Assembly: GCF_019966495.1 (NCBI RefSeq)
Contig: NZ_JAIMIA010000001.1
Span: forward strand, 124,001 to 188,000
Source: Tateyamaria pelophila
GTDB lineage: Bacteria > Pseudomonadota > Alphaproteobacteria > Rhodobacterales > Rhodobacteraceae
Length of the DNA stretch: 64,000 nt
Direction: 5' to 3'
Shown here: one piece after another, positions 28,595 to 50,894 of the stretch
Position numbering within the stretch: the first letter of the stretch is position 1
Layout: every line of letters begins with the position of its first letter
The notes under the pieces: model-generated
Told to the model about the DNA's origin: nothing
The model's database searches: none
What the model saw: the letters and a program-made list of their open reading frames with translations, nothing else
Program-made: the position numbers and the translations under genes

Positions 28595-29173
28595 ATGGCA
28601 AAGCTCTATTTTCACTACTCTACAATGAACGCAGGCAAATCGACCGTTCTGCTGCAAGCGGCGCACAACTACCGGGAACGGGGGATGGAGCCTTATCTTC
28701 TCACGGCGCAACTCGACAACCGCGCAGGCACCGGCCGCATCGCTTCGCGCATTGGAATAGACACACCAGCAGACACGTTTAATCCAAGCGAAGATCTGTT
28801 CGAAAAGCTCGAAAAACGGGCCGCCCGAGGGCCGGTTGCCTGTGTGTTTGTCGACGAAGCCCAGTTTCTCACCGAAGCACAGGTTTGGGACCTCGCCCGC
28901 GCCGTCGACGACCTGAATTTGCCGGTCATGTGTTACGGTTTGAGGGTGGATTTCCAGGGCAAGCTCTTTCCCGGTTCTTCAACGCTGCTCGCCCTAGCCG
29001 ATGAAATGCGCGAAGTTCGCACAATTTGTCATTGCGGGAAAAAGGCGACGATGGTGATCCGGCAAGGGGCCGATGGCAATGTTATCAAGGACGGTGCGCA
29101 GGTGCAGATTGGTGGCAACGAGACGTATGTGTCACTCTGCAGGCGGCACTGGCGCGAAGCGGTCGGTCGTTGA
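28595..29173 (+). CDS. tdk: Thymidine kinase
   Basis: A 192-residue type II thymidine kinase that salvages thymidine to dTMP with ATP. The P-loop MNAGKST is at 11-17, the Walker B/catalytic Glu in VDEAQFL near 85-91, and the structural zinc ligands are CHCG near 148-151 plus the C-terminal CRRH. The start at 28595 is set by AAGGAAGG upstream. It stands alone, and its stop is followed at once by an array of perfect hairpins before the convergent dehydrogenase gene. Confidence 0.95.
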   Translation: MAKLYFHYSTMNAGKSTVLLQAAHNYRERGMEPYLLTAQLDNRAGTGRIASRIGIDTPADTFNPSEDLFEKLEKRAARGPVACVFVDEAQFLTEAQVWDLARAVDDLNLPVMCYGLRVDFQGKLFPGSSTLLALADEMREVRTICHCGKKATMVIRQGADGNVIKDGAQVQIGGNETYVSLCRRHWREAVGR

Positions 29174-29179
29174 GACAAA

Positions 29180-29222
29180 CGCGATCCGACACGGATCGCG
29201 GCGGGACATCGACACGATGTCC
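29180..29222. repeat. Tandem perfect hairpin pair with three-base loops (pair 1)
   Basis: Two adjacent inverted repeats start six bases after the tdk stop: CGCGATCCG-ACA-CGGATCGCG (29180-29200) and GGACATCG-ACA-CGATGTCC (29204-29222), separated by three bases. Both loops are three bases and both are closed by YCG...CGR. There is no U-tract, so they are not ordinary terminators, though they would stop exonucleases. Confidence 0.85.
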
Positions 29223-29257
29223 TCACCGAGTAAGACCAACCTTTGCCGCATAGAGCG

Positions 29258-29301
29258 CAATCCGTACCGGATTGTAGCCGGAAACCGCGTCGGTTTCCGG
29301 C
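29258..29301. repeat. Tandem perfect hairpin pair with three-base loops (pair 2)
   Basis: CAATCCG-TAC-CGGATTG (29258-29274) and GCCGGAAACCG-CGT-CGGTTTCCGGC (29277-29301) are separated by two bases and end against the stop codon of the convergent dehydrogenase gene. The arms differ from pair 1, but the loop length and CG closing pairs are the same. The second hairpin shares its GGAAACCG arm with one at 50812-50830. Confidence 0.85.
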
Positions 29302-30258
29302 TTAAACGGGGTTCGGCAGCGCCTCGCCCAGTCGAAATGCCCTGAGGTTGTCGACGGCCAGAAGGCCCATTGCGGCGCGAACTTCCAAGGCCGCTGTTCC
29401 GAGATGTGGCAGTACGGTCACCCTATCCAAACCCATCAAAGTTTCTGGCACTTTGGGCTCAAATTCGTAGACATCCAACCCTGCTCCTCCAATCGTTCCA
29501 GCCTCGAGCGCTGCAACCAAGGCCGCTTCGTCGACGACATCCCCGCGCGAAATATTAATGAAATGCGCATGACACTGCATTGCACTCAGTACAGCGGCAT
29601 CAATCAAATGATGCGTCTCTGCTCCGCCGGGCACAGCCGCCACAAGAAAGTCGACCTGCCCTGCCAGATCGGTCAGCGTCGGATACCGTTGCGCAGGATA
29701 GGGCAGCGCCTTCTGAGAGCGGTTGAAATACGACACATCCATTCCAAATCCGAAATGGCACCGATGCGCGATCGCTTGACCGATCCGGCCCATACCGACA
29801 ATTCCCACACGTTTGCCGGACATGTGCAGTCCCAACATCTGCGTCGGATGCCATCCCGCCCACGTTCCGGACCGCACCAAGCGTTCCCCCTCTGCCGCCC
29901 GCCGCGCAGACATCAGCATCAGCATGACACCGATATCAGCCGTCGCATCGGTGACCGCCCCGGGCGTGTTCGTCACGGCGATACCTGCCGCGCGGGCCGC
30001 AGCCACATCAATATGATTGAAACCAACGCCAAAATTGGCGAGCAACCGACAGCGCGGGTCAGGCACATCCGCAAAAACTGCGGCAGAGAATTGATCCCCG
30101 AGGGTCGGCAGCACAGCATCATAGTCACGCAGGCTGGCACGCATCTCGTCTCCTGTCAGAGGCAGGGTTTCATTGCGCACATCCACGACATCGAAGAAAG
30201 GGCGCGCGGCGTCGACCACGACATCCGGCAGCGGGCGGGCAATCAGAACGCGGCTCAA
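29302..30258 (-). CDS. D-2-hydroxyacid dehydrogenase (glyoxylate/hydroxypyruvate reductase type)
   Basis: A 318-residue NAD(P)-dependent dehydrogenase of the D-isomer 2-hydroxyacid family. The Rossmann motif GMGRIGQAI is near 152-160. The catalytic Arg lies in INISRGDVVDE, the acid in YEFEPKVPE and the His in LPHLGTAALE. Glyoxylate or hydroxypyruvate reduction is the likely role by family. The start is a TTG at 30258 that overlaps the csaA stop by four bases (TTGA). It is the last gene of a ybjN-proC-csaA unit. Confidence 0.88.
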   Translation of the reverse strand: MSRVLIARPLPDVVVDAARPFFDVVDVRNETLPLTGDEMRASLRDYDAVLPTLGDQFSAAVFADVPDPRCRLLANFGVGFNHIDVAAARAAGIAVTNTPGAVTDATADIGVMLMLMSARRAAEGERLVRSGTWAGWHPTQMLGLHMSGKRVGIVGMGRIGQAIAHRCHFGFGMDVSYFNRSQKALPYPAQRYPTLTDLAGQVDFLVAAVPGGAETHHLIDAAVLSAMQCHAHFINISRGDVVDEAALVAALEAGTIGGAGLDVYEFEPKVPETLMGLDRVTVLPHLGTAALEVRAAMGLLAVDNLRAFRLGEALPNPV

Positions 30259-50585: not shown

Positions 50586-50894
50586 CGATGGCTAGGTAGT
50601 AAGGTCTGAAAGCTGTGTCAACGCCCTCGCCACGGGAAATCTACAAAAATGTCCCGCCAGCCTTTGCGCTGGTGGCATAAATATTTGGCGCGTACCTTCA
50701 CAATTCAACCCAACGTTTGAACCACAGATACCTGCGGAAACTTCGGATTGTCATAAGCTGAAGGACCCGCGCGTGGTATCAGGCGTCATTTTTCGACGCG
50801 AAAAATTGGCCGGAAACCGTGACGGTTTCCGTCTGCGTTTCAAATCCAGTCGCAGCACTTCTCGCTTTTATAAAATGGAATTCGGGTAAAATAA
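50586..50894. other. Intergenic region between groESL promoter and DUF2161 gene
   Basis: About 310 bp without a gene. It holds the groESL promoter end, a GC-poor middle and, at 50788-50830, a pair of perfect three-base-loop hairpins like those after tdk. A weaker CCAGC-N6-GCTGG hairpin is near 50660. Confidence 0.5.
50788..50830. repeat. Tandem perfect hairpin pair with three-base loops (pair 3)
   Basis: ATTTTTCG-ACG-CGAAAAAT (50788-50806) and GGAAACCG-TGA-CGGTTTCC (50812-50830), five bases apart. Both loops are three bases, with YCG...CGR closing pairs, exactly the design of the two pairs after tdk. The second shares its whole arm with the hairpin at 29277-29301. Confidence 0.85.

Follow-up and report, generated by a model that had tools for sequence, protein, structure and literature searches.

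Short extragenic palindromes of the REP/BIME type, which are associated with RAYT transposases, often occur as inverted pairs at gene ends; REP copies keep the sequence of their arms and are expected to come with a Y1 transposase. In a related family, hairpins inside one operon are thought to shield the upstream mRNA segment.

The closest described systems, as given in the parts of the source papers considered here, are stem-loops at transcript ends. Gupta and Pal (2021; PMC8355165) described clusters of hairpins, mostly two, which lie less than 15 nt apart near a stop codon, and argued from RNA-seq that such clusters work without poly-U. In Streptomyces clavuligerus (PMC8269248), 3' stem-loops without a U-rich tract (HS-U-lack ends) were read as I-shaped terminators or Rho-dependent 3' termini, and bidirectional ends were described as well. 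The bidirectional intrinsic terminators of Bacillus cereus (PMC5381666) serve two convergent genes with one segment and show compensatory stem changes, and inverted repeats of E. coli (PMC6060812) are enriched directly past stop codons, at gene ends. Secondary structures at 3' ends have been treated as protective in R. sphaeroides (PMC7866481, PMC6238624).

The element reported here resembles the clusters of PMC8355165 in having grouped hairpins beside the stop codon with no need for poly-U: two or more hairpins stand less than 15 nt apart near a stop codon without a U-tract, as in a U-less clustered (I- or V-shaped) terminator. We file it as a lineage-restricted variant of the U-less clustered terminator or 3' stabiliser. 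However, the loops in that report have a minimum of 5 and a mode of 6, whereas the present element combines a fixed 3-nt loop with a fixed stem, spacing and polarity and with covarying stems. We recognised no alphaproteobacterium in its organism table, and the words convergent, bidirectional and triloop are absent from its main text. The ends of PMC8269248 differ in that no fixed tandem geometry, triloop or polarity appears in the parts of that paper examined. The B. cereus terminators are hairpins with U-tracts, whereas the present element has separate mirrored stems for each direction, and most of the E. coli repeats that are 8 bp or longer and have a short spacer belong, as far as the consulted part of PMC6060812 goes, to intrinsic terminators. 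The HRC-8-4 motif of Rhodobacterales (PMC8632094) is described with a U-run and at cco genes, and is hence distinct. Among the titles and beginnings of abstracts that were listed by searches of open-access papers, we found no earlier description of a triloop twin-hairpin element with polarity.

The array between tdk and a convergent dehydrogenase gene

Inspection of the window, i.e., the whole 64-kb stretch of DNA that was analysed, from a Tateyamaria genome (Rhodobacteraceae), revealed four perfect triloop hairpins at 29180-29302. They form two close pairs in the convergent gap between tdk and a dehydrogenase gene. The features, together with a second twin hairpin elsewhere in the window, are as follows.

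28595..29173, + strand: tdk, thymidine kinase (NF003300, 300.1 bits, above the cut-off of 195)
29180..29200, + strand: hairpin 1, 9-bp arms, loop ACA (R-Y-R on the tdk strand)
29204..29222, + strand: hairpin 2, 8-bp arms, loop ACA; forms the tdk-sense pair together with hairpin 1
29223..29257, no strand: spacer of 35 nt between the two pairs
29258..29274, - strand: hairpin 3, 7-bp arms, loop TAC on the + strand and GTA on the dehydrogenase strand
29276..29302, - strand: hairpin 4, loop CGT on the + strand and ACG on the dehydrogenase strand; 12-bp arms that contain the common GGAAACCG core
29302..30258, - strand: D-2-hydroxyacid dehydrogenase gene, convergent with tdk
50788..50831, no strand: second twin hairpin of the window, an 8-bp arm with loop ACG and a 9-bp arm with loop TGA

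The tdk stop codon ends at 29173, 6 nt ahead of the array, and the outer base of hairpin 4 is also the last base of the dehydrogenase stop codon (29302-29304, - strand). The dehydrogenase is named with its best model, NF009714, scoring 250.7 bits, which is under the cut-off of 455. An earlier sequence-only reading of this site had described four hairpins in two pairs with arms of 9, 8, 7 and 11 bases, loops of exactly three bases, and stems that all end in YCG/CGR. The number, the pairing, the loops, the closing of all four stems and the first three arms agree with our inspection, but the fourth arm has 12 bases.

The predicted RNA folding energy was -26.2 kcal/mol for the left pair (z -5.1) and -28.7 kcal/mol for the right pair read on the - strand (z -7.4); none of 200 shuffles was as good in either case. 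When the whole array was folded as one 129-nt RNA, the + strand formed all four hairpins. In the best fold of the - strand, hairpins 4 and 2 were kept, and hairpin 3 paired with hairpin 1 in a long-range stem. An Rfam scan of the 64-kb window gave no match at the gathering score.

The pair at 50788-50831 folds more weakly (z -2.2), with 9 of 200 shuffles as good. It lies in a divergent gap according to the simple gene caller and is the sole divergent case among the 37 pairs counted below. Its distances from the called genes are 285 and 159 nt, and a short missed gene is possible there.

Recurrence, polarity and covariation of the hairpin pairs

A pair was defined as two triloop hairpins whose arms measure 7 bp or more and whose loop centres are separated by 20-27 nt. 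The sampled DNA comprised 2,443,194 bases, consisting of the window and stretches of four genomes: G000, to which the window belongs, G018, G167 and G153. We counted 37 pairs, compared with 0.5 in third-order Markov controls, and the frequency test that the sequence-only reading had proposed is thus passed. A typical pair has stems of approximately 9 bp and 3-nt loops, mostly 23-24 nt apart. Within G000, hairpins whose arms reach 8 bp or more were in greatest excess at a loop length of 3 (44 vs 10.5 expected); the counts for loops of 4, 5 and 6 were 18, 12 and 13, against 9.5, 4 and 5 expected. Of these 44 triloops, 18 end CG/CG. In the sampled stretches, 63 of 99 triloop hairpins closed by YG/CR have the loop ACA, ACG, GCA, GCG or a complement of these, and are thus RCR on one strand.

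Alignment of 44 pairs in one orientation gave a common plan of stem 9, loop 3, stem 9, a linker of 2 or 3, stem 9, loop 3 and stem 9. The outer C-G and closing G-C pairs of the first hairpin, the closing pair of the second and parts of the loops were conserved at 90-100%, RYR loops having been a condition for choosing these pairs. The stems were otherwise variable, and the copies share geometry more than sequence.

The loops read on the strand of the adjoining gene tend to R-Y-R. Among 118 distinct pairs, 32 were RYR-RYR, 34 YRY-YRY, 14 RYR-YRY and none YRY-RYR, and 38 had at least one loop of another class. The order RYR then YRY was found for neighbouring oriented hairpins in 123 cases (17 adjacent and 106 within 90 nt, the latter including several combinations per array), and the order YRY then RYR in 0. 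This loop polarity along the gene gives rise to two forms that are common: an inverted pair standing alone (RYR, YRY; about 44 bp), and a four-hairpin array with RYR, RYR, a spacer of 12-59 nt, YRY and YRY. We found 17 arrays of the second form, to which the window array belongs.

Two groups of loci showed variants. At L305, L306, L316 and L317, which belong to matched family members, paired stems stand over a short self-complementary centre (for example gcgc or catatg) with no triloop; these are perhaps a sister form with another loop. At L309 and L320, both from G123, a longer hairpin sequence adjoins the pairs, and at L309 GGATGGGCA...TGCCCATCC lies between the two pairs, read on one strand or the other.

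The positions of the pairs were compared with genes called by a simple codon-usage caller, to which short genes can be lost. Convergent gaps held 20 of the 37 pairs, and co-directional gaps held 11 (7 -- and 4 ++). One pair was in a divergent gap and one inside a gene, and the remaining 4 were at the edges of stretches. The sampled stretches hold 1326 gaps of at least 20 bp, of which 210 are convergent and 298 divergent. Among 65 oriented pairs, 46 had a stop triplet in any frame that ended 0-8 nt ahead of the first arm, compared with 17.5% of 20,000 random positions. In the sampled stretches, 17 pairs have both loops of the same polarity. Thirteen of them abut, at -1 to 11 nt, a called stop of the strand predicted by the loops, and none of the 17 abuts a called stop of the opposite strand. 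The other four lie 261 nt (L075:16079) and 332 nt (L216:5699) from a called gene, at a stretch edge (L075:19865), and beside a called minus gene (L290:14748). Close couples of matches to a covariance model (R1, below) in the whole genome were plus-minus in ten cases, plus-plus by best score in one (C218) and minus-plus in none. The loop thus tends to mark the transcribed strand and is mirrored where genes converge; an exception is the hbd orthologue in G018, with a TGT loop beside the stop.

Orthologous stems, compared across as many as six genomes of the genus, show changes in both arms. The covarying sites are the ends of the tdk, fructose-bisphosphate aldolase and 3-hydroxyacyl-CoA dehydrogenase genes, the latter two identified by eye. 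Sixty loci were oriented by similarity to their own protein; the distant L342 had no words in common, which leaves its orientation doubtful. The alignment covered 10 hairpins in 41 copies; Watson-Crick pairs filled 346 of 369 stem cells, and none of 2000 re-deals of the right arms was as good (mean 318, maximum 335). At 14 of 90 stem positions, at least two types of Watson-Crick pair occurred. The sequence-only reading had suggested selection on structure and had looked to compensatory change for its support, and these values agree with both. Decayed copies (aldolase hairpins 2-4 in G002; hbd in G007, G011 and G017) and genomes lacking the element were left out of these figures, which include the partly decayed aldolase arrays of G003 and G004 and the hbd pair of G004. 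In G018, hairpin 1 of the tdk array has one C-T mismatch, hairpin 2 keeps its arms with a GCG loop, and hairpin 3 shows a double change from A-T to C-G. The 23 stem mismatches were 11 G-T, 7 A-C and 5 others, on strands that are not all sense.

Distribution across genomes

The covariance model R1 was built from 44 of 96 pairs, namely those with both loops of one polarity and a centre distance of 23 or 24. Many of the 96 source pairs stemmed from loci that had been chosen through the GGAAACCG pattern, and RYR loops were fixed by the selection of the 44. In the whole window genome, R1 gave 65 matches at 45 places (E <= 0.01). At E <= 1e-4, matches occurred in at least 10 of 20 genomes of the genus, with at least 59 in G000, 57 in G018 and 26 each in G004 and G006, and in at least 13 of 149 genomes of the family. 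In a class-wide sample of 190 genomes, few of them from the family, G000 was the only genome matched, again as a lower bound. All of these genome counts are lower bounds, with at most 150 candidates scored per genome in the genus, 42 in the family and 33 in the class. G123 contained at least 36 R1 matches and no copy of the GGAAACCG pattern or of GGAAACCGNNNCGGTTTCC, so the element is recognised by structure and not by arm sequence.

The arm vocabulary varies from genome to genome. GAAACCGNNNCGGTTTC was found at 17 places in the window genome, and the pattern read backward at 0. GGAAACCGNNNCGGTTTCC was present 16 times in G000, 14 times in G167 and 11 times in G153; another 25 genomes had 1 to 3 copies each, and 366 of 394 had none. 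Its backward control matched once each in G007, G176, G211 and G312. Single GGAAACCGNNNCGGTTTCC matches from several genera (L041, L047, L054, L055 and L058) fall in one conserved stretch that is coding by eye, and the arm pattern alone therefore overstates the spread.

Counts jump within the genus, from no match in 10 of 20 genomes to at least 59 in G000 (E <= 1e-4), and the arrays at the aldolase gene ends of G003, G004 and G002 are in partial decay. Gain and loss of the element within the genus seem to be rapid. Since the tdk array is present in 2 of 20 genus genomes and 10 of 20 have no R1 match at E <= 1e-4, the element is dispensable.

Two further observations were made at individual loci. 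At L103, L120, L128 (Leisingera) and L133, GCCGGAAACCG...CGGTTTCCGGC hairpins adjoin a second palindrome, GAAAAATCGATTTTTC, which was not visible in the stretch of L120 examined; the combination is possibly a local version of the pair. Twin hairpins resembling those of Rhodobacteraceae also occur in CP059262.1 (L152, L160, L167 and L172), a record labelled Exiguobacterium profundum MAG SSD5, and this label may be wrong.

Transcript 3' ends and competing readings

The post-stop position, the rarity in divergent gaps, the loops that follow the strand and the covarying stems are best fitted by an RNA 3'-end element. We consider it probable, at roughly 0.6, that the array consists of two back-to-back mRNA 3'-end elements, one per convergent gene, which act as an exonuclease barrier and/or in U-less termination. 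The same position, rarity in divergent gaps and gene-following polarity point away from the earlier proposal that the palindromes are hypermutable and maintained by a replication or repair enzyme, and toward a role at transcript 3' ends. Each element would comprise two tandem stems of approximately 9 bp with a triloop, mostly R-C-R, and closing pairs Y-R and G-C, and would begin a few bases past the stop codon with no U-tract. It would act as RNA, in one or both of two ways. It may block 3'-5' exonucleases after Rho-dependent or read-through 3' ends have been trimmed, so the nuclease barrier of the sequence-only reading stays as one of two leading candidate mechanisms, or RNA polymerase may be halted by a U-less clustered terminator.

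Hairpin 1 would be in reach of the terminating ribosome, and hairpin 2, which starts approximately 23-32 nt past the stop (31 here), would fold first. Our guess at why there are two hairpins is that the ribosome would cover the first and the second would escape it. In E. coli, efficiency fell from approximately 90% to less than 10% when the stop codon was moved to 5 bp ahead of a terminator (PMC4824070, as far as considered), which argues against hairpin 1 as a terminator. Counting against the 3'-end reading, some co-directional gaps (L080, L269 and L077) hold a pair with one hairpin facing each way, and an opposite-facing hairpin is superfluous for the 3' end of one gene. The TGT loop of the hbd orthologue in G018, the dispensability of the element and the joining of hairpins 3 and 1 in the best - strand fold of the array count against it as well.

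The element could instead act as DNA, an account to which we give a clearly smaller but appreciable chance. Cruciforms or single-stranded hairpins between convergent genes would be bound by a nucleoid protein or by a topoisomerase that absorbs positive supercoils; BIME repeats are said to bind gyrase. The protein-binding cruciforms of the sequence-only reading thus keep some probability. The convergent bias of the pairs (20 of 37) fits this account, and either strand of the array, taken as single-stranded DNA, also gives a good fold (z -7.7 and -6.9). Partner stems were imperfect in 36 of 140 cases, with no excess of G-U on the sense strand; the inner oriented mismatches, in small numbers, were 2 G-T, 7 A-C and 13 others. 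Selection on RNA only would predict G-U on the sense strand, so these counts may tell against an action solely as RNA. However, a supercoil sink needs neither loops that follow the gene nor starts just past the stop codon.

It is unlikely that the pairs are a family of palindromic repeats, mobile or copied and similar to REP/BIME or MITE, which insert at gene ends and have no 3'-end function for the host. Such repeats would account for the patchy spread over and within genera, the mirrored layout of pair, spacer and pair, the arm vocabulary that differs among genomes, and the occurrence of the tdk array in 2 of 20 genus genomes. However, the arms vary between copies and covary at orthologous sites, and the copies have geometry in common more than sequence. 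REP arms are conserved and come with an expected Y1 transposase, whereas the Y1 transposase family PF01797 was found in 1 of 8 pair-bearing genomes tested. On these two grounds we rejected REP/BIME with RAYT, in agreement with the earlier view that the hairpins are not classic REP elements. G000 has Y1 transposase genes (PF01797) at C153:1463-1810 and C155:58628-58927, on contigs with no R1 match.

Ordinary Rho-independent terminators with an overlooked U-tract are a highly improbable explanation, which we take as refuted for the whole family and which may hold for single copies. As in a canonical intrinsic terminator, a stem-loop follows the gene's stop codon, but the U-tract directly 3' of the stem is generally lacking. 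Of 65 oriented pairs, 5 were followed by 4 or more T within 8 nt, leaving 60 with fewer, and the share of T was 8-23% at each of the 15 positions after the pairs. Of the outer ends, 5 of 34 in arrays and 1 of 28 in inverted pairs had at least 4 T in 8; at least 5 T occurred at 2 and 0, respectively, so 60 of 62 fell below that number. One of the two array ends with at least 5 T is in the window, where TTTGTCT follows hairpin 1 on the - strand and was flagged as terminator-like. The statement that these are not ordinary terminators therefore stands in general, but the accompanying claim of no U-tract fails for this end. G000 has 230 convergent gene ends. Under a strict rule, 9 of these carried hairpin-plus-U (against 1 in shuffled sequence), 13 a twin pair and 2 both, and the ends with hairpin-plus-U form a largely separate class.

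Chance is taken as refuted. Short hairpins are common, and many single GGAAACCG-type matches in other taxa stand alone, but 37 pairs vs 0.5, the covarying stems and a polarity of 123 to 0 oppose it.

An extension of the 3'-end reading, which we put forward only tentatively, is a direction code. Paired R-C-R triloops would be read by a dedicated factor through the shape of the loop and not the sequence of the stem, and would set mRNA ends without a U-tract in some Rhodobacteraceae. The factor might be an RNA-binding protein, a nuclease or a polymerase factor, and could be likened to eukaryotic Roquin, which reads a Y-R-Y triloop. As a separate observation, a ProQ/FinO-domain protein was considered as a partner that would have the element as its target, and was rejected: 21 genomes, including 9 that have R1 matches, all lacked the ProQ domain (PF04352).

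In the four sampled genomes, hairpin-plus-U terminators under the strict rule stand at few gene ends, so the ending of transcripts in these bacteria needs explaining. The element is compact and searchable, could help to annotate transcript ends from sequence, and allows U-less 3'-end formation to be tested directly. Should the loop be read by a factor, this would be a new kind of 3'-end recognition in bacteria.
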